This document shows, piece by piece, positions 23,953 to 63,689 of a DNA stretch of 64,000 nucleotides. Below the pieces are notes generated by a model, which saw nothing but the letters and a program-made list of their open reading frames with translations, had not been told where the DNA came from and ran no database searches. Source of the DNA: Bryoerythrophyllum caledonicum (lineage: Eukaryota; Streptophyta; Bryopsida; Pottiales; Pottiaceae); NCBI GenBank assembly GCA_963971425.1, contig OZ020517.1:11720501-11784500 (forward strand), in the 5' to 3' direction. A program made the translations under genes and the position numbers. Numbering within the stretch: position 1 is the stretch's first letter; every line of letters starts with the position of its first letter.

Positions 23953-24590
23953 CATGGCGACCATCTGGGCCGACTCGTGAGAGGAGAGTGGACCTAGACC
24001 TCTTGCTCACTACGGCACACGGTAATGAGAAAAAATAAAGAGATGTAGAAAGACAATTATGGAATTTGGAAGAAAACTAGGAAGTTAGACAAAAGTGATG
24101 GGATTGAAGAAAAGCTAGGAAATTTCAATAGAGAAGGGGGAAAAAATGAGAGAAAAATAGGGAAAATAGAGACGGCATTCGACTAGAAAGAATTGAAAGA
24201 TTAGCAGAATGGATGCACGTCCCAATTTTTGAGTTAAACCCATTCGCCCTGGACGGACCCAGGTTGAATCTACAGCCAAAAAAGATTTCAAAACCGCCTT
24301 CCGCCTTCATCGGAGTGAACTTGGACTACAGAGAGATAGAAGTTCCAATCTCTTTGGAAGGTAAGGAAAGCAAGGAGAGAAAACTATATTTTTGATAAGA
24401 ATTTGGGAGAAAGGAAAACACTTGTCTCTAGTGTAGTGATGAAACTAGTATGGTTGACCCATGGAGAAGAGATGACCGGCTGCAACTAGTGGTCAAAAGG
24501 CACTTAGTTGAATCGGAAGAGTCATGTCCTCCCCGTTGTGAGGCCAATTGTCACGAAGTGAGGTGGGCTAGTGATAGTGAATCCACTCTA
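23953..24590 (-). other. Gypsy untranslated segment between gag stop and 3' LTR
   Basis: 638 bp without convincing coding sequence. A polypurine tract would be expected on the minus strand just before 23,952, but none is obvious. Confidence 0.5.
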
Positions 24591-28184: not shown

Positions 28185-29212
28185 CTAACGATTAAGTTGC
28201 CGTTCTTAGTTTTCTAGACCTATGTGAAGACATTTCGTAAACACCAATAATTGACTTACAATGATTCCAAGTTTCTCCCAAACTCCCCCATGCTGGGAAG
28301 TAAACAAAACAGAAGGTTACATGTGGGGCTAACCTCCGGACGAGGTACACCCACTATGCCCCATACGATACAGACTCTTAGTTGGGCTGACCACCTACTT
28401 GGAGGTTTCTCCTCGGTATCAAGGTATCCCCAAATTCTCTCCAAGGGATGGCATCACCAACTTAAGAGAAACGACACCAACATGTACGAAAAATCCTTCA
28501 TTGGTTCATCACAATTTGTTCATTAAGAAGGGGAGAACGTACCTGGCTGCAATTTCACCATCCCTGTTCGATCCCTAAGCGAATCTAAGTGCCTAGTGTA
28601 GGGTTTGGTGTAGTGAGGAAGGTTCGTGTACTCACCTTATGCCGTGCTCCTTCCTCACGACCCCTTCAACATGCATATCATTCCATGTATGCAACATTCA
28701 TCCCATTCAACAACCAAGGCTATTGATAGCACGCAAGTTGCTCTTACCTTGGTGGTAGATCAAGTTCGGGGGGGAAGGGAAGGGCGCCCTTGTCCCATGC
28801 CCGGGCACATGCACCTTCCCTCTTTGGCTTAGAAGCTCACTGATTACTTTCAAGCAATCGTGGGAGGGCCTCAACCTTTCACCCCTAAGCCCCCTAACTC
28901 AACCAAAGCACAAGAGTTAGAAGGTGGTCCGCCTAACACAATGTGCTTGAGTTAGGAGGTCGGGAATTCCACACACCCTTCTAACTCCCCACCTCCATTA
29001 CAACTTGGACAAAACACTTCATACAAGGATATATGCACAAAAGTAGTTCAGCAACTTACCTCAAGCAATAGCGCACTCCACTCCCCATATGTGGCAAAAA
29101 CCACTCCATTCACGGTTTAGGTCAGAAATAGACCATTCAGAACCCTAGAAACCCTAAATTTAGCAATTCAGCAGTAAGACAAACACCTTCCAAGCAATGA
29201 ACCAAACAAAAG
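28185..29212 (-). other. Gypsy 5' leader (packaging region)
   Basis: About 1.0 kb between the primer-binding site and the gag start, without a supported gene. In comparable elements this region holds dimerisation and packaging signals; none can be pointed out here. Confidence 0.5.
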
Positions 29213-29233
29213 CTCCTCCCGGCAGACGCACCA
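29213..29233 (-). other. Gypsy primer-binding site
   Basis: On the minus strand, two bases after the 5' LTR, is TGGTGCGTCTGCCGGGAGG. It starts with TGG, complementary to a tRNA CCA end, and closely resembles the tRNA-Asp-type sites of plant Athila/Tat Gypsy elements (TGGCGCCGTTGCCGGGG). It sets the orientation of the element. Confidence 0.7.
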
Positions 29234-29235
29234 AA

Positions 29236-32002
29236 TGTAAGCCCAAAAATAAACCCCCTAAGAGAATCCATTTTTAAACCTACGAGGTCCTATTGTTACA
29301 CCACTTACCATTCCTTATGCTTAACTGTAAACCCTAATTTCTACTGGATTTGGATCTTGGCATATCCATTTATATATTTAGAAATCAATAGTACTATTAT
29401 CTTAATCCAGTTAAGTGAACTTGATTAACCCTCCTTGGTATTTAAAGGCTTAACTCTGGATAAATTAGATAGGTATGAATAGTTAATTAATTAATTGTTA
29501 TCTAATTATTATGGCTATTAGTTATTATGATTATTATTACTTATTCTTTATTTATTTATTTATTTTAATTTTTTGTTGTTTTATTATTATTATTATTATT
29601 TTTTTATTTTTTTTTAGTTTAGGTCAGCTGATCAGGCCTGATCCAGACCCTGGTTGGAGCAGCAACTTCGGCAGCCTTTATCTATTGATTCGGGACTCCG
29701 AATACCAAAAAATTTCCTCTTAAAATGATCACCAGCTCAATTCCAACTTGGTTAAAACACTAAATACCTAATTTGAGATTGATACCGGCCTCCACCAGCA
29801 GTCGCAGCAGACAGTCCCTGTGAGTCCCAGGTTTTGTTTTTTTTTTTTTTTAAAAAACATCTTAACTTCCTAGGATTAACTCCGAATTGAGCGTTTTCAA
29901 CTTCTAATCTTATTAGTTTTTCGTGCTCTTGACGATGGACTCCTCAGAATGTCCAGCCAGACCTTGAGGACTGCCACATACAGACGGACAGCGGCGACCC
30001 AACAACCACAACAAGTATTCACAGCTTCCTCATGAGCTCACACATCATTCAATTGGGAACACCATTCACCAAATTCTCAACGATTCCAGCAAGCACCAAC
30101 TTACAAGCATCAGCATTCTTGCATCGGCCAGCGAGCAATCATCACCAAGTTTTGGAACCCTAATGTCAAAAAAAATCCTCCAGCGCTTCCGCACAAGTTT
30201 AGAGATCCCACAAATTCAATCAACACAAGAAGGAAACCGCAACGACCGCATGCAGGTAGGAATTAGGGAAGGTAGCTTCACCCAGGAAATACTCCCTGGT
30301 CCGAGCGCCGCAGCCTCTTCTCGCCTGGATCCTCCAGCTCGAGTCTTCTCAGCTCGCGGCACCTTCACACCACCGCGCGCACACACGGCTCCACGATCAC
30401 CAACGCCGACCTTCAACAGCGCCTCCACACCGAAGCTCCCACCGCAGGAGCACTCCAGCGCGCTCTCTCAAAACCACAAAAAAAAAAGAAAACACGGCTC
30501 TCTCTCCCGTGCTCAGAGCCAGACCTCGTGATCACAATCACGGACCCTTGCGCGCACAGGTGCGCCCCTCGCCGAGCAGCCTTCCGGAACAGAGCCCAGC
30601 TCGTGCAAGCCCCAGCTCCGATCCCCGCGCACACACACAAAAACAGAAGAGTCCAGCTCTTCTCTCGCGCCGGAGCTCACCCTCCAGCTCCCCGAACACG
30701 AGACATCCTCGCGCAGGCAGGCGCAGACCCTCCTCGCGCGCAGCCGGTGCGCTCACCACAAAGACGAGAGACTCTCCTCGCACAGGAGCCTCGCACAAGA
30801 AAAACGAAGAAGAAAAAAAACAGAAGAGTCCAGCTCTTCTCTCGCGCCGGAGCTCCTCCTCAGCTCCCCGAACACGAGACCTCCTTCACGCGCTCAGAGC
30901 GCGCCTCTCCCCACAGAGCTCTTCCAAGAAAGAAAAAAAAACAGAGAGGCCAGCTCTCCCTCGCGCCCAGGGCGCACACACCACCAACCACCAAACAAAA
31001 CAAACCCAACCCAAAGCAAAAAAACGAGAGCTCCAGCCCTCTCTCCTGCTCGCAGGAGCTCCTCCTCGCTCCAAAAACGGGCCCCCGAAAATCCCGTGAC
31101 CCCAGCTCTCTCGCCAGCGACTCAGCCTGGCTGGTTCTCCTTTTTTTCTTTTTTTTTCTTTTTCTTTTGGTCTTTCTCGTTTTTCTTCCCCGACAAGACT
31201 GGCTTAGTTTAAATGAGGCAGCCCATGACCTCTCACAGAAGTGCAGGATTGGCCACTTACAGCCGTTTTTGCATGTTTTTAGTTTATTACTAGCATTAAC
31301 TCGCCGCTTTGCTCCTGACAAGCCTCCCTAAAATTAATTCCATGGTGGCAAGAATTGTCATGTGGCATGTGCATGGGGAAGCACACCCAACCACCTTCTT
31401 TTCTTTTCTTCCCCTTTTTTTTCTTTTCCTTTTGATCTTTTAACGACCATTACCCTAGATCTACTACTATCTACTGATGATTTGCAATTTACTTATAACT
31501 TCAAAAACTAACCACATAGCTGGACTCCTAGCACCCTAATTAGTCTACACAAATTTTCCTAGCATTTTTGGAGTTCATTAAGTATTTTTTCCGAGTGGTC
31601 AACCCGTCGACTAACTAGTCAACCCCTAGAATTAAATAGTAATTCAACTCGGAAATTTCTAGAAATTTTACCACTACTTCTACCTGCTAGGAGACACTCT
31701 CTCAATTTTTTCCATAATTTTTGTCCCATTTCTCAATTTTTAGTCATTTTCCAAGGACCTTTTTTTCCCTTTTTTATCTTTCTCTTCATTCCCACTCCAC
31801 TTCCACTACACTTTCAAGCATATTAGTAGGGAAGAGGAAAAATACGAACCGTAGTGTGACATCATGGCACTAAGTTTATTACTCTAGGAATTTGACTCTA
31901 GTAGATGGATTGACTACTACTTTAACTAAAATTGGGTCAATACTATCAAAAACTCGAAAAAAACAAAGAAAAAAGAGTGAGGGCCCACTTTGGCCACTCA
32001 CA
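29236..32002 (-). repeat. Gypsy 5' LTR (right copy)
   Basis: 2,767 bp, same ends and length as the left LTR at a constant offset of 8,050, with about three substitutions. It contains the same GC-rich low-complexity block and is followed by the tcccc duplication and resumption of LINE-2. Confidence 0.92.
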
Positions 32003-32007
32003 TCCCC

Positions 32008-32541
32008 CAAAACAAACAAGACCTTAATAACATAACAAAGCCTAAAAAAACTAGTACACAAAAAAGAAAAATGTTAAAATACAACACTAAACATACATAT
32101 AACAAACTATTACTACTTCTAGGAGGAGATATAGAAACCAACCCCGGACCCATGCCTAATATACTAAAAAGACACCCCCGAACGCATAAAAAAAATGCCA
32201 AAATATACTTCATACCTAATACCATAAAACTCCAACCAGAATATGAGCACATTGCAAAATCCTTTGCACCTTTTTTAAAGAACACACATACACTACACCA
32301 CATACACAACACTTCCCACCCAAACATTGCCCAATACATACAACTAAAAAATACACATCCACCACCCCACATTCTATATGCACTAATAATCACTACTCAT
32401 CCAAACATAGATGAATGCAACCTTCTTCTAAATCCACAAAATTTGAATGCAATTACATGGACCAATACACTTCTACAAACTTTAATAAACTTACAAAACC
32501 CACCAGAACAACACATTTACACTCCACACCCTTATACTTAA
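32008..32541 (+). pseudogene. LINE-2 ORF2 N-terminal region, continued, with second 2A-like motif
   Basis: This resumes in frame with 20,031-21,185 once the Gypsy is removed (HIP|QNKQ). GDIETNPGP at 32,125-32,151, preceded by LLLLLG, is a canonical 2A motif. Its surroundings (MPNILK, HKKNAKIYFIPNTI) match the single 2A region of LINE-1 at 43,116-43,142. The two LINE-2 motifs would be 157 residues apart. The frame ends at TAA 32,539-32,541, where LINE-1 has a Lys codon (FTKFLVENQN), so this stop is a decay mutation. Confidence 0.8.
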
Positions 32542-33092: not shown

Positions 33093-35891
33093 ATGCACAT
33101 ATCACCATACATTCAAATAATTAAAATCACTAATCACCGACTACAACCGTGGTTAATCTTTCACATGTATATGCCATCCCATCCCGAAGATACTAGATTT
33201 CTCTTAGATATACAAAACACTATTACATCCCAAATTAATAATTATCCCAATCATACATACCTATTATGTGGAGACTTCAACAGAGACATAGCGCTAATTG
33301 GCCGCCAAAATGGAAACCATCACACCCCCCCTCAAAACATTGATTACCAATGGTGTTGCTTCACAGAAAACTTAAACTTCACTTACATCAATATTGACAC
33401 ACAATTCTCTAGACAAGGTGGCTATAATTATAGTGATTGGAGTCTAATAGATGGATTTTATATAAATACAAACAACAATACACAATGCACCTCCTCAACA
33501 AACAAAGATATTATTCTCAACTCGGAGCACTCACCCGTACAATTGCACATCCCAAATAACACACTAATCAGTAGAACTCCTATAACCCTAAACAAAGACA
33601 CTATACGCATACTCAACCCCATCCCAAAAACCAACATAGAAAAATTCAACACAAAATTCTTCGAAGAAAACTCCGCACAAATAGACTCCCTCATAAACAC
33701 TCTTGAAAATAATAGTCAATTAACACAAACACAATGGCAAGAAGCATGCCACACCCTAGACAAACTCAGCAATAAAATCTCTGATACACTAGAACAAACT
33801 TGTAGAGCACACCCAATACCTCATATGACAAATGGAACTTCTCAACAAGGTGGGTACCTACCTCGCAAACTTTCAAAAATTTGGAAACAACACTTAACCA
33901 CATACCATACCATACGCAAAACCATTAGAATTGTAAAAAACAACCCTCAATGGCGTAACCACCCCATATACAATGAACTACTAACTCTACAACACATCCA
34001 AATCCCTACCCCGCCGCCTCCAAACCTTCCCCACGATACATGGATAAACGATATCGCGCTCATTGCAAAAAACGCCAACATACAAGCCCGGAAAGTAATC
34101 ACAAAATACACCAAAGAAAATATTAAAAAAGCCATATCAAAATACAAACAACTATACGAAACCAGCCCAAAAAAAATCAACAAAAAAGTCTTTAAAAATC
34201 TTGAATCCCCGCCAATGGATTGTATCACAAATCAATATAATAATATTCTAACTAGTCCCGTAGACATTGCGAATGAAATATTCAACCAACAAACAAAAAC
34301 CAATAGACCAACCGTACCAACATGTAATTACCACCCACAACATACAATAGAATGCACATGTGCAGTACGCCAATACCCATGGCATGACCTGGACGGATAT
34401 ACCATTGACAGACGGGGAGAACCAGAAATTCCAATACATAAATACCTCAACAGAGCCACATACGACACATGCCTTCAAAATCTTGGAAATAATAAAGCCC
34501 CAAGCCCAGACCGCATACCAAACTCAATACTCAAAAACATGCCTCCAAGATTTCATAATCTACTATTCCTCTTCTTCTCACACTGCTATAAACAAAAACA
34601 AATACCAAACTCATGGAAATCAAGTACAACAATTTTACTATACAAAAAAGGGGACCCGTCCATGCTATCCAACCATAGACCAATTGCACTAGCTAACACA
34701 ATATACAAACTCTTTACCAGTACACTTACCTCCATACTATCCTCATACGGCGAAAAATTCAAAATCCTACATGAAAGTCAAGAAGGATTTAGAGCAGAGA
34801 AAAGTACCGCACGACAAATACAAACTATAATAGCCGCACTAGAAGACGCAAAATACACTAACCAAGATATGTACATACTATACGTGGACTTCAAAAATGC
34901 CTTTGGCTCAATAGACCATGCCCGACTTTTAGCAATAATGATGGACCTTGGTGACCCAAAAGAGGCAACTACACTTGTTGGAAACATCTACTCCCAATCA
35001 TCTACCTGTTATACCGGTGAACACTTTGGGAAAACAAAACCTATACCCATCCAAAGAGGAACGATACAAGGGGACACCCTCAGCCCATACCTATTCATTA
35101 TATTTTTAGAACCACTACTCAGATGGCTAGAAAGAAGCAATTATGGATACACTTTTGGCAAATCACAAGTCATAATAAACTCCGTCGCATACGCGGATGA
35201 CCTAGAGACCATAACTAACAAAATCAAATCAATCCAAATACAACTAAACAAAATTGATAGATATTATAAATGGGCCGGTATAGACGTAGGTGTTCCAAAA
35301 TATGCCGCTACCGGATGCCCAAACAAATCCAAATTGAACCCTACCACTTTCAAAGCCCTAATGCAAGCCTCTAACATTAATTACCGCAATCAACCGATCC
35401 CTATACTACACCAAAACGAACCATACATATATTTAGGTACCAACCTCGTTCCTTCACTAAAATGGAAAATCCAAATCCACACCACAACGACGAAACTCAT
35501 CAAACAATGCAAAGAACTAACAACATGCCCAGCTACCATGAAACAAAAAATAAAAATGGTTGATTCCGTACTACGTCCAGGTGTGGCATACAATTTCTAC
35601 GGTGTACCATACTCTATGCCAGCTATCAAAAAACTTGATAAAAAAATAATAGCCATACAAAAAACCATATGTGGATTACCAAAATGTATGTCAAATACAA
35701 TAACCCAACTTCCACATAACCTATTCGGACTTGAAGCTTTCTCCCTCAAAAACGCATATCTCAGATGTATAGGCGAACAACTACAAAACGCTTTAAACGA
35801 TAAAGGAAGGCTTGGGAAAATATACAATGGACTAACTCATTATGTCCTTGCCCAATATGGTGGCGCCGAAAACATACCAAGAATTAAATAA
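33093..35891 (+). pseudogene. LINE-2 ORF2: endonuclease C-terminus and reverse transcriptase
   Basis: 932 open codons. Endonuclease motifs: GDFNRD at about 33,270, SDWSLIDGFYI at about 33,430, NSEHSPV at about 33,520 (the SDHxP-type His). RT: YKKGDPSMLSNHRPIALA, ESQEGFRAEKST, YVDFKNAFGSIDH, RGTIQGDTLSPYLF, and YADD at 35,190-35,201, followed by the thumb region. All RT catalytic residues are present. The frame ends at TAA 35,889-35,891 where LINE-1 continues (TKKTDCIRS), and homology continues past it in the same frame (SDCIRSPIT), so it is one decayed ORF2, not a complete gene. Confidence 0.88.
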
Positions 35892-41871: not shown

Positions 41872-43457
41872 GTATTTATGTAGGTAAAGTTTAGGTTTTC
41901 TGTAAAGTGTCGCCATTGGTAGTCTATGGTTTGAGGGGGGGTGGTATAATTTCCGTTTTGTCTACCAATTAGTACTATGTCTCTATTGAAGTCACCACGT
42001 AGCAAGTAAGTGTGATTTGGGTTTAAAATGATTTGTGATGTTATATTGTTTTGTATGTCTATGATAAATCTAGTATCTTTGGGGTGGGATGGCATATACA
42101 TGTGAAAGATTATCCAAGGTTGTAGTGGTTGATTAGAAATTTTTATTATTTGAAGGTACGGAGATATGTGCGTTGGGGTAGGGATTTTTTTGATGTTGCC
42201 CGGGAAGGCATATTTTTTGTGTATTAGTTTAAGGAGGCCACTGCGACCCGGTGTGTATGGTCTCCGTTGTAGGATACATCTCGTTAGTGCATGTGTGTTA
42301 TTAAAGATAAGTTTATAATCTTGGAATGTGTTTTGTATGTATTTTATAGATTTAATATGATATTTTTTTTTCTTGAATGATTATTAGGGCCGGTGGCGTT
42401 TTTGTATATGTGGTCAGAGCTTTTAAGCTAGGGAGATCGGTGTTGAGGGATGATGCGTTCCATGTAATGATGTTTGTATTGTCGTTGTTTGTGCTAGTGT
42501 TTTGGTTTTGTGGGGGAAGGAAGAGGGGGGAGGGGTTGGATGGGTGTATTCTGTTATGGGGTCGCATCATTTTAGTGTCTCGTTGATTAGGTTGTTAGGG
42601 AGGTACGGGAATTTTTGTTTTATTGTATTGTTTGAGGGTGGTATGGTTTGGCTATGTATGAAGTTGTATAATTCTTTGTGTATTGAGTTTCTGTGGTTTA
42701 TGATATTTTGATTTTCTACAAGGAATTTTGTAAATGGGTGTGGGATATGGATATGTCTTTTGGATGGATTTTGTAGATTTGATAAAGTTTGCAATAGTGT
42801 GTCTGTCCATGTAGTTGTGTTCGGATTTTGTAGGTTTAGAAGGTGGTTACATTTGTTTATGTTTGCATAGGTGGTTATTACTAGAGCATATAATATTTGT
42901 GTTGATGGGTGGATATTTTGTTGTTATATGTATTGGGCAATATTTGGGTGTGTGGTGTTGTGTAAATGATGTAGTGCATGTGTTGTTTTTAATAGAGGTG
43001 CAAATGTTTGGGCGATGTGTTTGTATTCCGGATGCAGTATTATGGTATTTGGTATAAAGTATATTTTGGCATTTTTCTTATGTGATGAGGGATGTGTTTT
43101 TAATATGTTAGGCATTGGTCCTGGATTGGTTTCTATGTCTCCACCTAGAAGTAGTAGGAATTTTATGTGTTTGGATTTGGCGTTGTGTTTTAGAATTTTT
43201 GTTTTATGTGTGGATTTTGGATGTTTTTTTATTTTTTTGAGATTATGTGTGTTTGAGTGTGTATGTGGGTCTTTGGTTGGGTATGTTGTTGTCTCAGTAT
43301 TTGTGTTTCTAGCCAATGTAGGGGTAGTGAGTATAGACATGATATTAGGTGTTTTTGTCTTTGTATTAATGTGTAGTATTTTATTTTTTCTTGTGGTTAT
43401 TGTGTCTATTTCGTTTCTATTGTCTATTTTTTTGGTGTTGCTTTTCTTGTGGGGCAT
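41872..43457 (-). pseudogene. LINE-1 ORF2 N-terminal part: 2A motif and AP endonuclease
   Basis: The open part from 43,457 encodes a Lys/Thr/Asn-rich leader, then LLLLGGDIETNPGP (GDIETNPGP at 43,116-43,142), a canonical 2A-like sequence. After it come the conserved MPNILK and NAKIYFIPNTI, then ITWNASSLNTDLPSLKAL and LIIIQE (about 42,450-42,370), the first endonuclease motifs, and GDFNRDIVLIGRQNG (about 41,990). It is cut by LINE-2 after DTQ. Several stops and frame changes separate these pieces. Only one 2A motif is found in this copy. Confidence 0.8.
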
Positions 43458-49794: not shown

Positions 49795-49798
49795 AACA

Positions 49799-49830
49799 AA
49801 CACGCAATTAAGCAATTATGCACTTGGCCA
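49799..49830 (+). repeat. Left terminal inverted repeat
   Basis: Pairs with 63,654-63,685 (31/32). The inner part forms a hairpin: gcactt (49,820-49,825) with aagtgc shortly after, loop about 10 nt. Confidence 0.85.
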
Positions 49831-50369
49831 TATAAAAGTGCACTTGGGTACAACGGCGGCCATTGCGAACAAAAGTGGCAAAATTGCAAAAAATAAATAA
49901 AAGAAAAAAAAAAAAAAGATTTCCAAAGAAAAAAAATTGAGCTTCTACAACAATATTACGTACAATCATGGTTGTTAATATAAGAAGCAATTTTTTGGGA
50001 TTTTCAACTAATTTGTGGTGGCCCCTTGTTAATATTAGATAAATGTGTATTTAATATAGTTTCACAATATTTCAAAGATAGATTTGAAGGATTGTAGTAT
50101 ACAAACAGGCGTAATCACAAAAAAACATACTTTATGCAAGGGTTGGCAGTTGATTAAAAGATATTCAACGTAGTATATAATGCATACAATGGTGGAAACT
50201 AAATATAGATTCTTCTATAAATGGACTTAGCACCAATAGTAAAATTACCTTTACCCTATAGGATTAATGACATAACGTCTTACATCACCCTTAGAATATA
50301 CTACTCTTACACATACACTATATATCTATTAATATACACAACTAGTATACTCTCATAAAGGCACACTAT
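49831..50369. other. Left subterminal region of the transposon
   Basis: Non-coding AT-rich sequence between the TIR and the transposase stop; likely includes the transposase 3' UTR. Confidence 0.5.
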
Positions 50370-53300
50370 CTACTCCACAGAATTTAGGGCTGCTTGCAAA
50401 CGGTCGTCATCGATAGCTTCGGTTTGCATTGCAACATATTGTAGTATGTGAGCCTTTGCCGATTGAAGAATGCGAATCGTGCTTTCAACCTGCACTCCAA
50501 ATACATTGCGCTTTCTGCACCCGCTGGCCCCGGACATGGTTCTTTCCGATGAGTCTACCCATGAAAAAATGCATGCATCTTTCACTACCCAACTATGGCT
50601 CTCCCCAGATGGCTCCCAGAATGAATCCATGCAATTTGCATACCGTTGTGCAGAAGACCCATGTCCATCAGCAACCCCCCTTTGGATGATGGGCCAATAC
50701 CAACAAACCTTAATCTTAAGTCTCCATCGGTTTTTTCCTTCCTCAATCACTTTCCCCACATAGAATGGTACACCGCCTTCTATCTCTGCTCGATCAACAC
50801 TCAAGGCTACAAACTGTCCACAACGGATATCAGATTGTGGATTAAATGGTGGAAATGGGTCGTGATTACCTTCATACATTGCTCCTTCTTCGGCGCGTTC
50901 CTCAACATAGTTGCGCTCTGTTTGTTGTGCCCTACGCACTGCTTGATTAGAGGGTCTTCCTCTACGAGGACCAAAGTATCCTCGAGACTCGGCATTTGGA
51001 AGCACCGCCACTACCTGCTCTACAACATTTACCTCGCGATTTTCTTCACTTCCACCATCCATTACATCCAAAGATGCGCTCCCTGTAGGTCTGGTGTTGG
51101 AGAACTCTGAAAGCCAAAACGGTGAGGTACGATGCTTATTGCTACGATCTTTGTGTGGAAATTGAGCTAAATAGACTTTCAATCTTTCAGCCTCTACTTT
51201 TGCCTCACGATTCTTGTCCTCATGCTGCAACCTTTGAATGCACCTTTGTTTATATGCAATGAAGTCATCCAACGCCTTCAACTCCCGTTCGTCCGCTGCA
51301 AATACTTCCGCAAACGATGGTCGTTCATCCCTATTTGGCAACGACCTCAAAGTTTTCGTCCCTGCCTCCGGTCCCCATGGATCCTTGCAATAATGCTTGT
51401 GTTGTACTCGAACCTCACGAGTCCTTTCTCGATTGTCCATATAGAATCGCATGTGGTGCGGAAATGTTATGCCCACCAATGAATCCTGACCTGTCAGTAA
51501 GTGAGGAGTTATGAACACTTTCCAATCCCATACATTCTCTAGCAGCCGGGCGCTAACAAATGCCTCCGTAGGAGATGTTCCTCGTTCTATAAGACTAATC
51601 ATTTCCTTCAACGAGTCCACGTCCGACCTCTTCAACGTATTTGATATACAACTGAAACGTTGATCAATATCTTCGTGTGTATGGCCCACTATAAGAAAAG
51701 ATAGTTCCACCTCCTGAAAAAACTCCAATCCCACCAATGTAGCACATAGAGCAAACATGTAAATGTTTTTGTTCTCACGCGTGCAGTTGTCGGCTTGAAT
51801 TAGCAGTGTTGGTGGCAAAAAGCCCCTCCTCCGTAGCACATCTCCAATCACGTAGAACAATGTACTCACAACTTGATTGCTATCGTGTTTGTGGTGAGCC
51901 CCAAACCACACGTCGCAATATAAACCAATCCCATGTACAAGAGCACCATACAAATGGGTCTTCACAAACCGGTGTTCAATGTTCTTTACAGTCTGATGCA
52001 TCCTCGGTACCATGGTCGTATTTTGGTCCATGCCATCCACTATGATGCACAAGTACAACTCAGGGCTAATATAACAAGACCTCTTGAATATCCAATAATG
52101 CCTACGTTCTTCCATCTGGTTGCGCAGATGCAACATAAACAACTCCTTTATCTATATCCTTGCATCCGCATTGGTGGTTCCCTCCATGGCACATTTATAC
52201 TCCCAACAATGATAACACTTTGAGAATCTTGAAAATGGAGGTACCTGAACGTGGGGATACTTGATGCGCCACATCCTCCGAAACAAACTCATAGAAATGG
52301 TTTCTCCATTACAAATTCTTTTGACCTCCTCATTCACGTAATTGAATACATTAAATTTGGTTGTATTCATAGGAAGGAGAATGAGAGGCACCACTTCGTT
52401 GTCACTTTTACGGCGAATACAACGATGAGGTTGAGGACAACCAGCTTCATCGACAAACGATTTAAAGCAAGCCTCTGCTGCAGACATTCTAGTACTCTCT
52501 CTTATCGGATCTGAAAGGGTATTGCCGTGAATCGATGTCACTCTTCTATATATTAGACAGTCCTTCTTCAATTGCTTAAAGCGCCTCTGTGAATATCCAA
52601 CCCCAAGAGCATAGCAAGCATTGCAAACTTCTTTCCCATCTAACTTTGTTACAAACTTGTCTCGACGAGTTCCTTCCGTCCTACTGTAAAAAGAAACCAG
52701 CATCTGTCTCATCCACGTACTTCGAACTGAAAACTCACTACCCCATGCACTATATCGCATGTCCAATAGATACCTTGCTGGAACGTCCCTCAAACAATTG
52801 CGTTTGCATCCTCCTTGTGCCATTGCAATTTGCACACTTCTAAGCGATACCTTAGATGGTGCAGCTTCTGTCAATGATGGCTCCCTTGAATCTCTGTTTC
52901 TCCTATTTTGCATAGAATATGGATGACGTACTGGTCTAACATAAGCAAATCCATCTACATGGGGCAAATCTTGGATATTTGAGGAAGTAGATTGGGAAAA
53001 CGGCGAATTTTCATCTATGGCGTTTGAAGCATGACTACTGCGTCGAGACCTCTGGATGGATCTTGGTGTGTTCATGAACTCAGGAAAATCAAATTCTGGG
53101 GCCATCACTTCTGCAGGCGCTATCTCTGATCGAATGTCACCATGGACACCTGTGATATCAGGTTCTACAGCCACTACACGTAGCAAAGATCGATGCCAAC
53201 GAATGATCAAGCCCACACACATGCCAAGGCGTTCTCCTACAATCTCTCCGGTCCAATGCAATGCATCATCTACCCTAGTGATACGCACCGCCACCTCGAA

Positions 53301-53600
53301 TGGGAACAACTTCGATCCATTCAATTCCATGCCACTTTTGAATGCATGCTCCTTGGTTGCTAAGCCCACCACATCTCCTCTTTCTGAAAGCAATTCTACT
53401 GCCCTTTCCAATTCAGAAGTCATGATCCCAACAGATCTCTGTTGAATTTGCCTTGCACGTGCTACTCGTACTAATCGGGCCCCTACAGAGCTATTAGAAG
53501 GCATATTGTCCCTTTCGATGTGTGGCCGTATCAATGGAGTCTGAATCGTGCGGCTCTCCATTATCACTATTAAAAAAATAGAAACATTATGGCTGCACAT
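50370..53600 (-). pseudogene. DUF7869-type putative transposase, one in-frame stop
   Basis: One frame of 1,077 codons broken by a single TAG at 52,152-52,154 (ADARI-stop-IKELF). Start is ATG 53,600 or, more likely, ATG 53,561 (MESRTIQTPL). N-terminal third: unknown globular part, then a Ser-rich linker. About residue 262: GCKRNCL. About 340-350: GKEVCNACYALG. About 470-480: CYHCWEYKC, so several Cys motifs suggest zinc binding. Core: VDGMDQ (about 520), LIQADNCTRENKN (about 600) and VGHTHEDIDQRFS (about 640) are hallmarks of the DUF7869 family; the three acidic sites fit an RNase H-fold DDE/D nuclease. About 878: RRGRP, an AT-hook-like motif. C-terminal FVALSVDRAE and YVGKVIEEG recall a BAH/SH3-like module. 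Its role as transposase is inferred from the TIRs around it. TAG probably arose from CAG. Confidence 0.75.
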
Positions 53601-53799
53601 TAGTCAAAATACATGTACTAATTGTTAACCTTCAAAGCACCATTCATCTGATAAAAGGTATGTTTCTAAACACATATTTACTGTTCAAAATATGATGATG
53701 ATATTGTACCTTTTGATAAAACTGCTTTGAAATGAGAAAATTAAGAATTTTTAGCACATGAACTCCTTGCACGGAGTCTTTAACCCTGAAGGTACAATG
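53601..53799. promoter_or_regulatory. Probable upstream region of the transposase gene
   Basis: AT-rich gap between the transposase start (minus strand) and the first repeat unit. Divergent promoters are expected within 53.6-59.1 kb; no specific element is recognised. Confidence 0.3.
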
Positions 53800-54740
53800 A
53801 TAGTGTTACACCAAAAACACTTCTAAATTGTTGGATTCCAGTGCAACGAACAAAAAATGAAACAAAAACTTTTATTTCTAGTTTTGACCGTAGTTTCTCA
53901 ATTACGACTTATTAATTAATAATTAAAAAAACATTCATAAACTTTGGCCGCACGGATTGAAAGATTATAGTGTTTGAAGTGAATCTTATGGTTCATTTAC
54001 TTCCCTGCGTGTAGTGGATCAGCAGACTTTGACTTCACTTGGTGTCAATTTTTTTTTTACAGAAGGTCTAATTCCTTAACCATCTTGTTTAGCATGATGT
54101 TAGTTCCTTGTACACCAATTTTTAGAGGGAGAAAAAAGGTGTAGCATATTCAAAACAACTGTGCAAAGAATCGAAGTTCGGAATTTGTTGATTCACACTG
54201 TAATTTTTTGTGAACTTAATATGTTTTAGATTGGTAATTGAAATGGTCAATAAGAAGGTTTACACCACATATTGTAGTGGAAAAAAAAAGTGAAAAATAA
54301 AAAGATATCTAGGTTTTAATTGGAAATCAAGAAGTTTTTTTGGTACCTTGCCCATCACTGACTGACAATGTGTGAAAATGTTTGATTTGGGTTGGTATGC
54401 TATTTTTCAATAAAGACAAGAACTTATTTTGACAACATCAAGGGAAATAATTTTACTTTTGAGTACAAAAAATCTCACAATCAACAGAGTGTCCTAGCAA
54501 AAGTTTTTGGAGGTGCCCAACTTGTTTGCTCTCTCCATTTTAAATTTATAACCCTATAAATTTTTGATCAAATGTCCAATTTACGTAAAAATTATTTTCC
54601 CACTAAGGTTTTGGTAATGCCTTTCTATAGTAAAATTTACAAAGAGGAATGTTGGACATTGACACCATAGAAACCTGACCAAACATTCAACAAGCCAATT
54701 TTTGACACTTGATCCATTAGGGGTTAAATATGCTACACCT
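53800..54740 (+). repeat. 0.95-kb internal repeat, unit A
   Basis: Landmarks in order: gtgttacaccaaaaacactt, tgaccgtag, ccgcacggattgaaagattatagtgtttgaag, cccctgcg-like tract, ccatcttgtt-agcatgatgt, gtgtagcatattcaaaac, ttttttggtaccttgccc, aggggttaaa. Roughly 85% identical to unit B by eye. Non-coding. Confidence 0.75.
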
Positions 54741-55019
54741 CTTTTGCATTCCTAAACATTGGTGAATAATGGAACTAATCAATCTTCACATGATGATAAT
54801 GAACCTAGATCATGTGTGATGCAATCTTTTGAATCCAAGTGAACTGAAACGAAGGGAATTCACTGAACCTAGGGAAGAAAATGAACCATGTTGTCTACTT
54901 GCTATTATTGACACCATTGGAACTTGTTACAATCGCTAATTAAATAATGGATTTGTACGTCCACATAAAGGTTATTCTACAAACAACATAGTACAAAAGA
55001 TCAATCAAGAATCAATCTT

Positions 55020-55975
55020 AACCCCTAAGGTATCGTGACAGTTTTACACCAAAAACACTTCAAACTAAATGGATTCTAGTGCAACGAATAAAGAAGGAAA
55101 CAAAAACTTTGATTTTTAGTTCTGACCGTAGGATCTCAATAAAGGCTTATTAAATAATACATATACAAAATTTCAAAAACTTTGTCCGCACGGATTAAAA
55201 AATTATAGTGTTTGAAGTCAACTAAATGGTTCATTTTCTACCCTGCGTTTAGTGGATCAATAGACGTTGACTTCAGTTAGTGTCAAAAAATTTCACTACA
55301 AAAGGTCTAAATCTATTACCATCTTGTTAAGCATGATGTGAGCTCCTTACATTTTACTTTTTAGAGGTAGAAACCGGGTGTAGCATATTCAAAACAAGTG
55401 TGCAAGGAGTGGAGGCTTGAAATTTGTTAATTCACAGTTTAATTTCTTTTCAACTTAATATGTTTTTGATTGACAATCCGAATGGTTAATATGAAGGTTT
55501 ACATTACATATTGATGTGAAAAAAATAAAAAGTGAAAAATATGAAAATATCTAGGTTTTATTTGGAAAACAAGAAGTTTTTTTGGTACCTTGCCCGACAA
55601 TGAGTGACAATGTGTGAAAATGTTTGACTTGGGTTGGTATGCTATTTTTCACTAAAGACAAGAATTTTTTTTTGACAATATGAAGGGAAATAATATTACT
55701 TGCAAGTAATGAAAATCTCACTTTCAATAGAGTGTCCTATCAAAAGTTTTTGGAGGTGCCCGAGGTGCCCGCCCTCCCCATTAAAATTCAAAACCCTATA
55801 ACTTTTTCATCAAATGTCCAATTTAGGTACAAATTGTTTTCCCACTAAGGTCTTGGTAATGTCTTTTTATTATAAAAATTTCAAAGAAGAATGTTGGAAA
55901 TTGACACCATAGGAACCTGACCGAACTTTCAAAAAGCCCGTTTTGGACACTTGGTACCTTAGGGGTTAAACTTGT
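55020..55975 (+). repeat. 0.95-kb internal repeat, unit B
   Basis: Same landmarks and orientation as unit A. Between A and B (54,741-55,019) is unrelated non-coding DNA. Confidence 0.75.
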
Positions 55976-56814
55976 ATAAAAATAAATGTTTACCTCAAGA
56001 TACGTTGCAGGTGTTAGCGGTACACGCACTGATGCTTGATGGCATTCAACATTATATCACCATTCCGTCGTTGTTGTTCGACATGTTTCTCAACCCTTCC
56101 CCCTTTACCTACAACACATGCATAAAGTTTATATGGTAAACTATGTGATAAAAAATCCTATATGTATCTTCGTATTACATATAGCCCGAAATTTTAATAT
56201 AATATATTGAAAAAATTAACATATGGAGAAACAAAGCAAAAGGTCCAAAGTTCTTAAAGTCAAATTTTTACTAGTAAACTTGAGGCACAAGGTTCCAACA
56301 TGGATAAAAGGTTTCTATGCAAACCTAGAGGTCATTTCTCTTTGCAGTTTCTAAGGTGGGCACTCTTGCAATCAAAACCTCAAGGCTATGTGCATTTTTA
56401 CTTCATTCACTAATTTTTGTCAAATTTGTATACTGTGTAGATTGGAGGAAATTTGCACATCGAGGAGATTTTTGCGAACTTGGTAAGCTTCTAACTTTGT
56501 TTCAATTCTGAATGTGAGGAACTTAAGGGTTATGTTCATGATGATTGAAGTTCAGACAGAATTACGTTAGTGTTAGGTGAGTACCAATGTTTGAATTCAC
56601 AAATGAGAACACCAACTGGAGTATGTACAAACTTGCAATTTCAACAAGAAAACATGATAGCAGTCAACAACTAGAGAGTGCAAGCATTGTTATAGTGAAA
56701 AAATGACACCAAAACCTCATAAAGTGAGTCAAAAGAGCAGCTCGTAGTATTGCACAAAATCCTCAATATGGCACATCAGCGCACTACTTCAAATCCTAGC
56801 CTCTACACAGAAGA
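55976..56814. other. Non-coding DNA inside the transposon
   Basis: No supported gene or repeat between unit B and the AAACCCTA cluster. Confidence 0.45.
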
Positions 56815-56950
56815 ACCTAAACCCTAGTTCCAAAACCCTAGCCGCCGTCACGAAACCCTAGCCACCACCACCAAACCCTAGCCATCGCCACCAAAACCTA
56901 GCCGCCGCCATCAAACCCTAGCCGCCACAACCACGAATCCAGACCCTAGT
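56815..56950 (+). repeat. Cluster of AAACCCTA(GCC) units (telo-box-like)
   Basis: At least six copies of aaaccctagccgcc(gcc/acc) in about 130 bp. AAACCCTA is the plant telo-box motif, common in promoters and 5' UTRs of plant genes. The units also look like a Gly/Ala-rich microsatellite, so function is open. Confidence 0.6.
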
Positions 56951-57011
56951 CAACATATTTGCATGACGTGGAAATCGCGTGACGCCTCCCAAAGTAACCT
57001 TGAGCTAGAGC

Positions 57012-57761
57012 TGTGCGCGCGCACACCCCCTACTGCTGGTGCTCCTCCACCAAGCTAATCCAAACACATCGAGGCAAAAATCAAAACAATAGCTTCCTCC
57101 GCGATCAAGTGTGGCAGTCAACCTCCTCGTTGCGCAGCTTCGCAGGTGCGACGCCTCCTTCCCATTTCATTGCCNNNNNNNNNNNNNNNNNNNNNNNNNN
57201 NNNNNNNNNNNNNNNNNNNNNNNNNNNNNNNNNNNNNNNNNNNNNNNNNNNNNNNNNNNNNNNNNNNNNNNNNNNNNNNNNNNNNNNNNNNNNNNNNNNN
57301 NNNNNNNNNNNNNNNNNNNNNNNNNNNNNNNNNNNNNNNNNNNNNNNNNNNNNNNNNNNNNNNNNNNNNNNNNNCTGCGGCCCTGCCGAGCAGGCGCTGC
57401 GCCTTACGCGGGCAGGCGCGGCGCTGCCACGGCGCAGGCGTGCAATGTTTTTTTTTCCTCTCTCTTTCCCCCACTAACCCACACACAATTTCCCTCACCC
57501 ACTCTCTCCTTCTCTCTCCTAAACCCTTGCCGCCCACAACTTCCCTCACACCTCCCACAACTTCCTCCCCTCCCTCACACCTTCCCCGCCCACATAAACC
57601 CATCTCTCCCACACATCTCCCACACATCTCCTCACACATCTTCTCACACCTCCCACACATCTCCTCACACCTCCCCCACATTGTCTCTCTCCTCCTAACC
57701 CTACCCCCTCACTCACAGCCTCATCACAACTTCTACCAGGGGTGTGCGCGCGCACACCCCT
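57012..57761. repeat. Pair of CG/CA palindromes flanking the assembly gap
   Basis: tgtgcgcgcgcaca at 57,012-57,025 and a longer perfect 24-bp palindrome at 57,738-57,761 containing the same core plus cccc/gggg arms. Both are followed by ccccct-type sequence on the plus strand. They flank a CG-rich stretch and the gap, and may mark ends of a nested unit. Confidence 0.5.
57175..57374. other. Assembly gap (200 N)
   Basis: Exactly 200 unknown bases, a typical placeholder length. Sequence on both sides is CG-rich. Open frames drawn across it are meaningless. Confidence 0.99.
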
Positions 57762-57979
57762 CCTAGGACTACCCACTTGAGCAAAGGATTGATATCCTTA
57801 TTGATACCCGGAAATCGAAACCCTAATCCAAACCCTAATTTGATACACCGGTTGATAACCGCTTGTGGTACCAAGGAGCTCATACCCTGGTCGTCATACC
57901 CTAGATATTGATACCCCAAGTACCTTGGTCCATAAATAATGTAGAGAATATCTAACCCAAATATCGTTAAAATTGTTTG
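57375..57979. other. Non-coding DNA between gap and repeat unit C
   Basis: CG-rich start, then pyrimidine-rich ctcccacacatct repeats (about 57,600-57,690) and a gataccc-rich stretch (57,790-57,930). No supported gene. Confidence 0.45.
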
Positions 57980-59040
57980 TTTTTGTGAAATTAGAAAGCC
58001 TCTAGAATTAATGTTTTTTTTAGTTTTAACCGTAGGATCTCAATGATGACTTATTAAGTAATATGCTCACAAAATTTCATAAAGTTTCACCGCACGGATT
58101 GAAAGATTATAATGTTTGAAGTAGTGAAAATGCTCATTTTCTTCCCTTCGTTTTTTGGATCAGCAGTCTTTTATTTCAATTGGTGTCACATTTTTGCACT
58201 ATAAAAGGTCTCAATTAATTACCATAATGTTAAGCATGATGTTAATTTTCTATATACCGATTTTTAGAGTTAGAAAAGGGGTGTAGAATATTCAAAAAAA
58301 TTGTGCAATGAGTGGGGGTTCAAAAATTCACAATTCACGTTATGTTTTTTTGTGAACTTAATATCGTTTGAAATGAGAATCCAAATGGTCAATACGAAGG
58401 TTTACATCACATAATGCCGTAGAAATAATCAAAAGTGAATCATACAAAGATCTCAAAGTTTTATGTGAAAAGGTAGAAGTTTTTTGGTACTCTCCTCGAA
58501 AATGTGTGACAATGTGTGAAAATAATTGACTTGGATTAATATGCTTTTTCACTAAAGAACTAACAACATGCTTAACACGATGGTATTGGATTTGCATCTC
58601 GTGTAGTGCAAAAGTTTTTAGAGGTAGACAAGGGGTGTAGCATATTTTTTTTAAATGTGCAATGAGTGGTGGTTCAAAAATTCTCAATTCACGTTATGTT
58701 TTTTGGTGAATTTGATATCGTTTGAAATGAGAATCCAAATGGTCAATACAAAGGTTTACATCAAATAATGTGGTAGGAAAAATTAAAAGTGGATCATACG
58801 AAGCTCTCAAAGTTTTATGTGGAACGGTAGAAGTTTTTTGGTACTCTCCTCGAAAACGTATGACAATGTGTGAAAATAATTGATTTGGATTAATATGCTA
58901 TTTTTCCTATAAGAACGAACAGCATGCTTAACACGATGGTATTGGATTTAGATCTTGTGTAGTGCAAAAGTTTTTAGAGGTAGACAAGGGGTGTTGCATG
59001 TTCAAAAATATTGTGCAATGAGTGGTGGTTCAAAAATTCT
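57980..59040 (+). repeat. Internal repeats C, D and E (partial units)
   Basis: Unit C (57,980-58,560) matches the first part of units A and B (ccgcacggattgaaagattataatgtttgaag, gttaagcatgatgtt, ggggtgtag). D (58,560-58,915) and E (58,915-59,040) are further tandem partial copies sharing acaacatgcttaacacgatggtattggattt and gtttttagaggtagacaaggggtgt. The array ends about 60 bp before the right-hand gene. Confidence 0.7.
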
Positions 59041-59102
59041 TATTCCATACTAATAGTGACTATCGTTTTGTAATGATATACAGGTTTTTTGAGTGTTGCG
59101 TT

Positions 59103-62100
59103 ATGGCACCACCAAATATTGATAGAATCTGGGAGAGCCACGGTTGGTGGATCGCGGAAGTGGATGAGTCGAGCGCCTTCTTATGGGTGACGGATTATCC
59201 CTTTGAGCTGGGGAAGCGTAAATCGGCGTTGGGAAAGAGTTTTGGCAAAATCCAAGCAATCACTCTTCGACGTGATGATATGGTATACGTTACATGCGCA
59301 GTGGGTCCAGGTCAATCGGAGGTGAAGACTTCTCTTTCGAAGAAGTTGCTTTTGGCACCTGTCCCTTTGAATCTTCTTCAAAATCCAGGTCAGGTGAAAT
59401 TCCTCAAATCCTTGCAGACGTTTTGGTTAAACATCTCTCTTGCGGGACGTACTACTAGACACAACAATGTCTTAGCCTGTTTAGCGTTATCACCGGAGAT
59501 GGTGCTGAAGGCTAAGAAGATTATGGAGGAACATATTGGATATGAAGCATTTCGGGAGAGAGACCCATCACGTGCGACAACTCAAGCTCCACCAGCAGAA
59601 CTAGAAGAAACAGAAGTTTATCGAATTCTTGCTGAGCCGTTGGAATTGGATTGGCGACCACTGGAGGGGGGGAGAGGAAGTGGAGGCCAACATCCCACCA
59701 CAACTTCTAAGGTACAGACATTACCGAATCCTCCATTAACGAGTAGACGTCCTACGAAGAGGCCACGGCGTGTTGACAGTGATATAGCTTCTGGTTCAAG
59801 AGAAGGCCCATCGAGTTTGGATCCAAGTGGGAAGAGGTTGATTGGGAGAAGTGCAAGATCGGGTGGCAGGATTCCTAGGTCGGAGCTCAGGACGTCTGAT
59901 GGTCATCGTAGGGCCCCTACATCTACACCGGGAGATTTAGCTGATTTGTCTGCTATGGCGCCGGAGCAAGAAGATTTTCACTACCTTCCAGACAATATAC
60001 CAGAGGATTTTGAAGACAATGCGGAGATACCGTAGGATGTTCCAACTCCAATGAATTTAAAAGCACCAGTGCCTACAACAGAGGAGATTGCGAAAGGATC
60101 AGTGTGGGGGAATTTTGTGTTTAAGGCACACATAGACCGCATTGTCTCTGTGGAGAATCTGGAAACCAACCACCGGGTTTTATCACAGAAGAGGGTCATA
60201 GAAGTATTCAATCGCTTACGAGACCCAGACTCCGCGACTCGGGTGAGTAGATTGGTACTTCGACCGATCAGATATATCGTGCATACTACCACCGATCATG
60301 GTGTCGTTGAGAAGGAAGAGCTGCCATTTCCGTTGGTAGGTACCGCACGAGAGTTTGAATGCATGTTCATTGCACACGAGAGTGCTTCTGCAGAGGGTGC
60401 TATGGGATCACAGTATTCTTGGCTTCAAGATCATATCATTTGGGAACCGGTGGATGGGCAACACATAGTAGCAGCTCGTAAGTTTGCACAACAGGAGTGG
60501 AGAGATGGAACGATGCCTTTAAACGAGTATCAGGACACGTTTGAGCGGCGGGAGGCCTCTTTTGTGGTGTATGATGATCGTCGCTTTTACATTGAGAAGT
60601 CTGCGCGGATCAATGTGGCGGAGTTCCAGAGACATTCATATTCTACCATGGAGGAGGATTTGAGGAAGATCCGTCAGATTTGGGATCTAAACGGGAGGCC
60701 TGATAGCACACTACGTGCGGACGATGCACGTAGGGCTGTTGTTTTGGTGAGTGCGGCAAGTGCAGTGCATAAGTTGCCCAAGGGGGATGGAGTTGTCACG
60801 GTGAAGAAGTTGGCCAAAAACATGGAGGATCTGACCAATCATGCATGGAATCCGAGCAATGATTGCTTCGAAGCTATCATTCAAGTATGTAAGGACTACG
60901 AAGACGGCAATCTCTTTTATAGCAAGGATGAAGAGGACAAGTGAAAGGACATGGCAAGGAAGAAAGAGCTGGATCCAAATGTGGACGTACGACCAACAAG
61001 AAAGGAGATGACCCAGAATTGGTTGAGGCCGTTAGGTAGGGTTCCGATTCCATATTATCTTCGGTTGACAAAGTCTGCTGCAGCGAAGCCGGTGACGGAG
61101 GATGGAGTAAGACCTCGTCAAACATACTACTTCGACGGTGTAAAAGACAAGAATCCACATCGTCATACGATTGCCGGTGTTTGTGACCGATATCAGAGAC
61201 GAGAAGCTGTAATCAATTCCATCCGTTGGTTGATGGTGGAGAACAAGGAAAGTACACCTGATTCCATGGAGTTCTTCCGTATCCGTGTAGGGAAGTATTT
61301 TCCGAGGAGTAACGCACAACTTGATACCTTTGGGAAGCTTTCGAATGCTGCCACGAAAAAAACTTGGACTGCTCCTGTGCGGGGGAAGGTGTCTAAGCTG
61401 GAAGACATAGGCTACCTCATCCCTCCTTCCATCAGGTTTCATTATGGTGACATTGCAGCAGGGGGGCGTGGATACATTGGATTGTCCGTGGATGTGGGAG
61501 GACAGGCTACTGCTAATTGGGAATGGCAGATGGAAGTCAAGAGGCCAGGCCAGAGCGACATAGAGAATCTTCTTCCAATTCAGTGTAGAAGAGGGTTATT
61601 CCGCACCGACTACATAGAGTTGGGAAAACCATGTTTGTGGGTGATTGATTGTCGACGTGGCGGTGGGAGGCATGGAGATGGTCATTGGGGAGACGTCCAG
61701 TTATCCGGAGCTTTTGCACAGCTGTCATTATGGATGGCAAATATTGAACAATGGAACGTCATCTTCTTGTTACCAGCGGCCGTGTATGCCAACGAAGACT
61801 TTTTCACGAAGGTGAAGCTTCCAAAGGGATGTACCATGCGACGTGGATGTTGGGCATTTAATCCAAACTCGGTTAATCCCTATGCTCTCGATTTTACAGA
61901 GAATGGGCGTCTGGAGCAAGTAGTACAATCGATTGGCGATGTTGTGATTTGTATGCAACACCCTGTGGGTACATCTCCTGGCCCGAACTATGTTTCTGGA
62001 GACGTTCCACTTCCTCTTGTTTTCTTAGATCACTGGAGTGAGGCATGCCAACCCTCTGAAGTTGATTCACTTGAGAGATCTCCAACAGAGCTGGCAAGAC

Positions 62101-63065
62101 TAGTGGGCTCATACTTGCCCCGTGGTTGGGATTTAGTGGCGTATAACATATCTACGGCCATTCCCACGATCCTTGAAGGAGATTTCCAGGGATCTGAGGT
62201 TTTCATCATTGACGATTGTACAGACAGAGTTTCATTTCTGTACAATGAATTGTCCGACAATTTCCAAGGACAACTGTTGGTCAGGATTGGTGGACCAAGT
62301 ACTGGTTACAACGTCGTACCTGAGACCGAAGAGGTGGTTGGTGGAGTGAGGAATGAAGACGACAATGAGGATGGAGGTGGTTTACATGAGAGATTGCCAC
62401 GTTCAGGTACCACTGAAGATTTCTCATCTCGTAGTGGTATAGACGCCGATGAAGATGGAGTGAACCAGTCTCCTCCAAGAGAGAGGATTCCATCAACGCA
62501 GCGGGCGGTGGGAGATACTTCAGGAAGGACGTCTGCAACACCTACAGAGAGGATGCAAGATATCGGTGTAGTGGATGTTGGTTTGGCGGCAGGGGCAGGA
62601 GGGGGGCGTACATTTGATGGTCGTAGGCTGGAGATGGAGGAAGAAGAATTGGATTCATTGGAATTTTTTTCGGTGCAGAGGAGGATTCCATAGTCTTCGA
62701 TGCCTTCTCAATCAGAGCCTGTATCGGAGACACAAGAGACGTTGGAAGGTACTCAGAGTGATACCGGACCAGGTTTGCCTTCCGTTCCAAGATCTAGCGT
62801 ATCCGAGGACATCATTGCATTTCAAGGGGCCTTCTCGTTAGAGCGAGAGATGTCCTTCAATGGAGAGGATGGCTTTTTCTACAATGATGATAGGGTAAGG
62901 CATATGCGGGAGGGTGTTCCTGGCAATTACCGATATGTTGAGTGTACCTCCATTGGCATCGAAGATGTGGGAGATCGTCCAGTACAAGATCATGAACTGT
63001 CCGCTATGGTAGGTAGCGCCATTGGACACGTGGAGGGAGTCGTTCCGCCAGAAGATGAGCTCTGA
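59103..63065 (+). pseudogene. Large transposon-borne protein with ParB-like motif and possible degenerate methyltransferase fold, three in-frame stops
   Basis: From ATG 59,103 (MAPPNIDRIWESHGWW) to TGA 63,063-63,065 there is one frame of about 1,320 codons with only three internal stops: TAG 60,033, TGA 60,942 and TAG 62,691. No frameshift separates the four open pieces. A splice acceptor-like tatacag ends at 59,083, so a 5' intron is possible. Part 1: conserved-looking N-terminal domain, then a basic/Ser linker (RRPTKRPRR). Part 2: EPVDGQHIVAARKF (60,450-60,476) resembles the GxHR loop of ParB/Srx nucleases. Part 3: LWVIDCRRGGGRHGDGHW, then WNVIFLLPAAVY and later WDLVAYN-STAIPTI, EVFIIDD, in the order of an amino-methyltransferase but with the DPPY-type motif replaced by DCRR. 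Part 4: acidic tail. ParB plus methyltransferase pairing is known in phage modification enzymes; the assignment here is tentative. Position beside the transposase implies a role for the element. Confidence 0.6.
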
Positions 63066-63653
63066 GGCCTAGAGCTATATACTGTAGTAGAGCATGCACG
63101 CAGTTTAGGTGACAAGTATATTAGTATAATGCAGTTTGAGATGTGTCTATCGTTCGATGGGTGGTATATATTTATATATTGGGTGGTATATATTTATATA
63201 TTGGGTGGTCCATATGATATGTTTGATTTTAGAATTCCTCAGCAATAGTGTGGAATTGCTTTATTATGTATGTTTTTGCATTATAAAATACAGTGAGGTA
63301 CTTTACACTGTCTTAGGAAATTGCAAATATATTTTTGTATCTCTTACACATTGTATTTGTAGTGCAGTACTCTAAAATCCTATAATAACTCATAACACAT
63401 TTATAATCTCTTTGGGCACATGATCATAATTTTGTAGCAGGATTTGCAAACTAGATTAGAAATCATATATTTTCTAAAAAAAGGTAGCGAATGTAAAAAA
63501 TATATTATTGATATAAACATGAAGATGCCAATGTATGACACGACAAACACCCAAAAAATTTGACAAAAAACATACTAAACTTTTGCCAAATTTTGATTTA
63601 AAAAAAAGTTATGAGCAAATAACTTGCGGCTTTCTACCAGCAACCAGTGCACT
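63066..63653. other. Right subterminal region of the transposon
   Basis: AT-rich, non-coding; likely 3' UTR of the right gene. A 26-bp duplication (gggtggtatatatttatatatt) occurs at about 63,160-63,205. Confidence 0.5.
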
Positions 63654-63685
63654 TGGCTAAGTGCATAATTGCTTAATTGCGTGTT
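63654..63685 (-). repeat. Right terminal inverted repeat
   Basis: Pairs with 49,799-49,830. The inner part is a compact hairpin: gcactt (63,649-63,654) and aagtgc (63,659-63,664), 4-nt loop. Confidence 0.85.
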
Positions 63686-63689
63686 AACA

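Follow-up and report, generated by a model that had tools for sequence, protein, structure and literature searches.

A many-copy, two-gene DNA transposon with a DUF7869 protein and a conserved partner in the moss Bryoerythrophyllum caledonicum, set beside Sola by published description

What kind of mobile element, if it is one at all, occupies positions 49799-63685 of a 64,000-nucleotide stretch of the genome of the moss Bryoerythrophyllum caledonicum? The stretch, hereafter the window, comes from contig OZ020517.1 of assembly GCA_963971425.1 (positions 11,720,501 to 11,784,500 of the forward strand); in the genome as we searched it, which comprises 437 Mb in 894 contigs, it is C4:11720501-11784500. 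The initial annotation, drawn up from the sequence alone, had described a ~13.9-kb element with 31/32-bp terminal inverted repeats (TIRs), a candidate 4-bp aaca duplication and two long genes pointing outward from a repeat-filled centre. It had taken the left gene for the transposase and could match the whole to no named superfamily. We find that 49799-63685 is a real, many-copy DNA transposon with exactly these ends, and that its two genes are conserved together and travel together. The preferred reading, to which we give a probability of about 0.72, is a cut-and-paste, Sola-like transposon encoding a DUF7869 transposase and a conserved partner that moves with it.

The two TIRs, each of 32 bp, lie at 49799-49830 (plus strand) and 63654-63685 (minus strand) and are complementary at 31 of 32 positions, just as had been proposed; on an estimate assuming uniform bases, about 1e-9 such pairings would be expected by chance in 15 kb. 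The left end, taken as 102 bp, has at least 40 genomic matches at 97-100% identity, the window included, these being the best 40 of 1,154 first-look candidates, and copy numbers are lower bounds throughout. Homology running past the ends was the outcome that the initial annotation had named as damaging; eight loci were cut out via the left end, one being that of the window, and in 7/7 of the others similarity to the window begins no more than 3 bases from 49799, with outer flanks unlike those of the window. Both halves of 10 other copies were examined, and three of these are full length (13,538, 13,858 and 13,693 bp), one is a derivative of 7,416 bp, and in six the right end was not found within the 15 kb examined. 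In two of the six (C7:3512590 and C12:3288538) a right gene, oriented as expected, is separated from the left end by ~26 kb, which is the pattern that nested insertions would give. A further 20 copies were chosen via left-gene or left-end matches and their end stretches compared in two batches of 10. The right end is present at full-length spacing in eight of them (five in the first batch, three in the second) and absent from the 1.1-kb stretch examined in the other 12, one of which also lacks the left end there. Element size is 13.4-13.9 kb in the copies measured. A copy on contig C8 has ends that match at 32/32 positions, and its two 600-bp end regions together contain the motif CCAAGTGCA four times, counting either strand; this repeat is a plausible candidate for a transposase-binding site.

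The suspected target site duplication is also real. AACA abuts the left TIR at 49795-49798 and the right TIR at 63686-63689, and a perfect 4-bp duplication of varying sequence is found in 12 of the 13 copies with both ends located, window included (AACA, TTAA, TACT, ACAA, TCTT, TATG, TATT, TATT, GTAT, TGTT, CTAC and TCAA). The thirteenth copy has TCTA vs TATA, with three of four bases in agreement, and duplication lengths other than 4 bp gave no consistent match in the first 10 of the 13. The search for empty sites that had been suggested was successful at five of the 13 sites, where the joined flanks align straight over the junction to loci or repeats without the element and with a single 4-bp site; among these uninserted relatives are copies of a long interspersed nuclear element (LINE) from the same 64-kb window. 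At the fifth of these sites (C6:6455058) the relatives are only 68-71% identical and the four bases differ in some, and a match for C6:2258508 was left uncounted because it falls in that copy's own right-flank stretch. The duplications and the uninserted sites together fix both ends and the 4-bp length of the duplication. That chance inverted repeats merely surround two unrelated genes in repeat-rich DNA is refuted by the many copies that share ends, duplications and uninserted sites; nothing in its favour emerged, and we regard this as vanishingly improbable.

The left gene (50370-53561, minus strand) is a single frame at 53600-50370 that would encode ~1,063 amino acids (aa) from the ATG at 53561 or 1,076 aa from the ATG at 53600, and it is broken in the window copy by one in-frame stop at 52152-52154. 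Its product matches the DUF7869 domain (PF25273) in Pfam at 51420-51971 on the minus strand, corresponding to residues 61-244 of the 50373-52151 piece, with an E value of 8.4e-51. The Pfam entry assigns DUF7869 no function, and in the present case it forms part of a demonstrated transposon. No other Pfam transposase is matched by the left protein, and a literature search for the name DUF7869 found no paper. Among the best 74 of 3,818 candidate places scored, a few of which, on small contigs, could be duplicates of loci on the chromosomes, the left frame is uninterrupted over at least 1,066 codons in 37 (hand count).

Three aspartates of the left protein are spaced D-81-D-39-D, a type of spacing usual for DDE/D enzymes, and the spacing is kept in all 10 rows found, that of the window and those of nine further copies (the derivative, which lacks the genes, contributes none). 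The same aspartates align in two foreign relatives, L008 and L014, which lie on contigs of prokaryote bins and align with the left protein at 26% and 22%. A four-row alignment that includes the window piece has as invariant columns the D of DGMDQ (DKMDH in L008), the D of QADN and the HTH[E/D]DID block. In a structure model of DUF7869 the elements follow the order strand 33-38, helix 93-109, strand 115-121, helix 128-141, strand 147-153 and helix 159-171. If this weak model is accepted, the order is that of RNase H, and the aspartates would fall after strand 1, at the end of strand 115-121 and in the last helix, as they do in RNase H folds. The DUF7869 match and the D-81-D-39-D pattern support the earlier assignment of the left gene, whose product is probably a DDD transposase.

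The right gene (59073-63065, plus strand) is likewise a single frame, open from 59022 to 63065, with a putative start at the first ATG, 59073; it has 1,348 codons in unbroken copies and in-frame stops at 60033, 60942 and 62691 in the window. The two long genes therefore point outward as had been noted, left on the minus and right on the plus strand, and neither is intact in the window copy, which has one in-frame stop in the left gene and three in the right. We rejected an altered genetic code behind these stops because both genes have copies that read through unbroken with the standard code, and for the same reason we read the stops as decay of the window copy. Among the best 75 of 1,303 right-gene candidates scored, the frame is open over 1,348 codons in 17 (hand count). 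The gene is full length in 9/9 full-length copies compared, two of which have no stop.

Do the two genes belong together? A divergent left-gene place lies within 40 kb of 22 of the 75 scored right-gene places and within 12 kb of 19 of them, window included; under a crude model of random placement, with pairs counted whatever their orientation, the mean within 12 kb is 0.36 and the maximum in 500 trials is 3. The pairing was drawn from two separate best-score lists (74 left, 75 right), so that some partners are missing from view. Both frames are uninterrupted in 6 of the 22 gene pairs. The pairing, whose constancy had been put forward as a check, is in this way seen well above chance, and the opposite outcome, the genes never occurring together between such repeats, was not seen in the copies examined. 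The ratio of nonsynonymous to synonymous substitution rates (dN/dS) is below 1 in 45/45 pairs for the left gene (range 0.24-0.60) and in 36/36 pairs for the right gene (range 0.20-0.88, median 0.41). The pairs have sequences in common, which makes them non-independent, and damaged copies are among them.

The low dN/dS of the right gene and its pairing with the left gene suggest maintenance of the gene for the benefit of the element, and they speak against the view that it is a passenger, captured from the host or from another transposable element and without part in transposition. The right protein has no recognisable domain, as would suit a passenger, and accessory genes without a known function are common in the giant transposons of Ectocarpus, according to the accessible portion of their description (PMC12477816). 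Given the 36/36 pairs and the shared location with the left gene, we consider a passenger rather unlikely.

The right gene might instead encode a ParB-like plus DNA-methyltransferase accessory of the kind found in the element Sola1-1_Ec32, with a decayed methyltransferase part, which would mark or unsilence the element. By eye, VDGQHIVAA resembles what we take to be a ParB box and SPLELARLVGSYLPRG what is presumably a methyltransferase stretch, resemblances that searches with hidden Markov models (HMMs), of the PDB and of phages did not confirm. Pfam scans of pieces of the right protein gave nothing at E values up to 10, PDB searches gave neither ParB nor methyltransferase, tblastn of the right protein against phages gave one match at chance level (E 1), and a DPPY-type motif is not visible in the protein. 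In the available part of its description, Sola1-1_Ec32 of Ectocarpus is 21.5 kb long and has an opposite-strand accessory gene for a 1,104-aa ParB-like and DNA-methyltransferase protein (PMC12477816). The layout is the same: in that giant Sola element, as in the moss element, a second gene runs opposite to the transposase gene, and the two second genes are similar in size. Unlike that element as so described, the moss element is ~13.9 kb long and encodes a right protein in which HMMs detect neither ParB-like nor methyltransferase domains. The resemblance is by eye only, and we judge it unlikely that the right protein is of this type, even in a very diverged form.

To which superfamily, then, does the element stand closest? 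The Sola superfamily (Sola1/Sola2) was reportedly described by Bao et al. in 2009. As far as the accessible text of later accounts goes, Sola elements have a DDD transposase, 4-bp duplications and lengths of 2 to >15 kb and are found in the moss Physcomitrella (PMC10741241), their TIRs measure 11-1124 bp (PMC10741241, PMC3627910), and Sola2 in amoebae has AT-rich 4-bp duplications and, in Dictyostelium fasciculatum, an 888-aa transposase (PMC3627910). Like the elements in those accounts, the present transposon makes AT-rich 4-bp duplications, 12/13 perfect and one 3/4, with a single site in the five uninserted relatives. It also has a length and 32-bp TIRs inside the published ranges and a putative transposase similar in size to that of Sola2. 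The left protein has a D-D-D pattern in 10/10 rows, which would suit a DDD transposase, and the fold model is too weak to be proof of one. The accessible accounts of plant Sola mention no counterpart to the orphan second gene with its 1,348 codons. We have fair confidence that the element works like Sola, to which it is likened by published descriptions and not by sequence, and the best label for it is a Sola-like variant that has two genes, the partner being an orphan. Since the AT-rich 4-bp duplications and the D-D-D pattern fit the Sola criteria in the accessible accounts, and since a Sola1 element with an opposite-strand accessory gene has been published, the statement that no named superfamily could be matched was too strong; the remainder of that interpretation, namely the ends, the 4-bp duplication, the paired genes and a probable transposase, holds.

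A superfamily outside the named ones has to be weighed at this point. DUF7869 would then be a transposase class of its own, and the right protein an obligatory second subunit, comparable to RAG2 beside RAG1 or to the Myb-like protein of Harbinger. Such an arrangement would suit a domain that Pfam leaves without function and no paper in our search names, a left protein with no other Pfam transposase match, and an orphan right protein with dN/dS <1 that is present in 9/9 full-length copies compared. However, the features that can be checked (the AT-rich 4-bp duplication, the DDD pattern, size and TIR length) fit Sola as far as it is described in the accessible text, and we think a separate superfamily improbable. 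Still less probable, in our estimate, is the stricter proposal that DUF7869 defines a two-component transposon class whose transposase works only with an obligatory 1,348-codon protein of new fold, in the manner of RAG1/RAG2.

Other superfamilies were considered and rejected. Kolobok and Sola3 belong with piggyBac to the group with TTAA targets, and TTAA is the target in only 1 of the 13 copies. CACTA elements duplicate 2-3 bp. The duplication is TA for Tc1/mariner, 8 bp for hAT, 7-12 bp for Mutator and 3 bp for Harbinger in the accessible parts of two accounts (PMC12730594, PMC10741241). All five are excluded by the 4-bp duplication together with the lack of a Pfam match to their transposases. 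Ginger, which has a Gypsy-like integrase according to the text available (PMC10741241), is excluded by the lack of an integrase match in Pfam. PIF/Harbinger resembles the moss element in having two genes, one of them for a transposase, with a Myb/SANT protein encoded by the other as described in the part of the source available (PMC12730594). It differs in usually having a 3-bp duplication and in its transposase family, and Pfam scans found no Myb/SANT domain in the right protein.

In the model that we propose for the Sola-like transposon, the DUF7869 domain of the left-gene transposase would be an RNase-H-like DDD catalytic core; the transposase would bind the 32-bp ends, excise the element and join it, for the most part at AT-rich sites, to target strands staggered by 4 bp, which would yield 4-bp duplications of varying sequence. 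The right-gene product would be a conserved partner that moves with the transposase and assists it. Cut-and-paste movement, catalysis by DUF7869 and the affinity to Sola are what we infer from the features above, and the right gene may be required for transposition. Our guess is that its protein is an accessory factor, either DNA-binding or directed against silencing, which would aid expression or transposition. The 7,416-bp derivative (C12:19733094-19740509), which has both ends and a TACT duplication, has neither gene and is inserted in LINE-like sequence, suggests movement in trans; it is no proof, because the interior could have been replaced after insertion of a full-length element.

Several observations weigh against this model. 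The structure model of DUF7869, built from a five-row alignment, is poor (mean pLDDT 47.8), and its last helix, which holds the third aspartate, has a pLDDT of only ~29-48. Argonaute and Endonuclease V have RNase H folds, and a Foldseek comparison of the model with the PDB gave no match at E <=0.001, the best being Argonaute at E 0.13 with Endonuclease V lower. Residues beside the aspartates are changed in 3 of the 10 rows (GHTHEDIYQ, GHTHKDIDQ, and DEMDQ with QADNYTH). No divergent left gene is listed within 40 kb of 53 of the 75 right-gene places, and one near pair, ~21 kb apart on C4, is not divergent. The right protein has no match beyond chance level in Pfam, NCBIfam, PHROGs or the PDB, and its single-sequence structure model is unusable (pLDDT 32.6).

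With this element DUF7869 gains a genomic setting that points to a function in moving DNA. A large family of two-gene transposons is documented with many unbroken frames, and its second protein is conserved and matches nothing in the libraries that we searched. Should the partner prove to be an accessory or to act against silencing, the family would offer a natural system for testing how transposons escape silencing in this genome, and annotators could then leave genes with DUF7869 out of host gene counts. If the two-component class were true, 'host' genes of unknown function with DUF7869 would be transposases or their domesticated descendants.

The centre, previously described as filled with repeats, resolves into two pairs of direct repeats before the genes and a GC-rich stretch. 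Two ~950-bp direct repeats (53780-54728 and 55018-55970), 82% identical, lie upstream of the left gene. Upstream of the right gene are two direct repeats of ~425 bp that overlap (58261-58684 and 58615-59040) and are 88% identical. The shorter pair is related to the longer at 73-77%, and the related repeats before both genes might provide shared regulation. The stretch at 56833-57766 is GC-rich with tandem units and contains an assembly gap of 200 N at 57175-57374; the match to the window breaks near this centre in three full-length copies also (element positions ~7227-7723).

No usable relative from outside the genome came from searches of viral contigs, of prokaryote contigs or, with the left and with the right protein, of phages. 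When contigs of prokaryote genomes were scanned for a motif, 17 stretches were returned, three of which (L008, L014 and L017) encode DUF7869-like proteins, that of L017 being fragmentary. L008 has a 947-aa DUF7869-like open frame at 893-3733 (minus strand) on a contig binned as a cyanobacterium. All three are probably eukaryotic contamination of metagenome bins.

Elsewhere in the window, the motif GDIETNPGP, which we take to be 2A-like, occurs three times in stretches that look LINE-type, at 20808-20831 and 32128-32151 on the plus strand and at 43116-43139 on the minus strand, and there are reverse transcriptase domains at 33093-35888 and 12769-14292. Two identical open reading frames 8,050 bp apart (22459-23281 and 30509-31331) flank a gag frame with a Ty3-capsid match (24594-28184), and 22459-31331 is probably a long terminal repeat retrotransposon.

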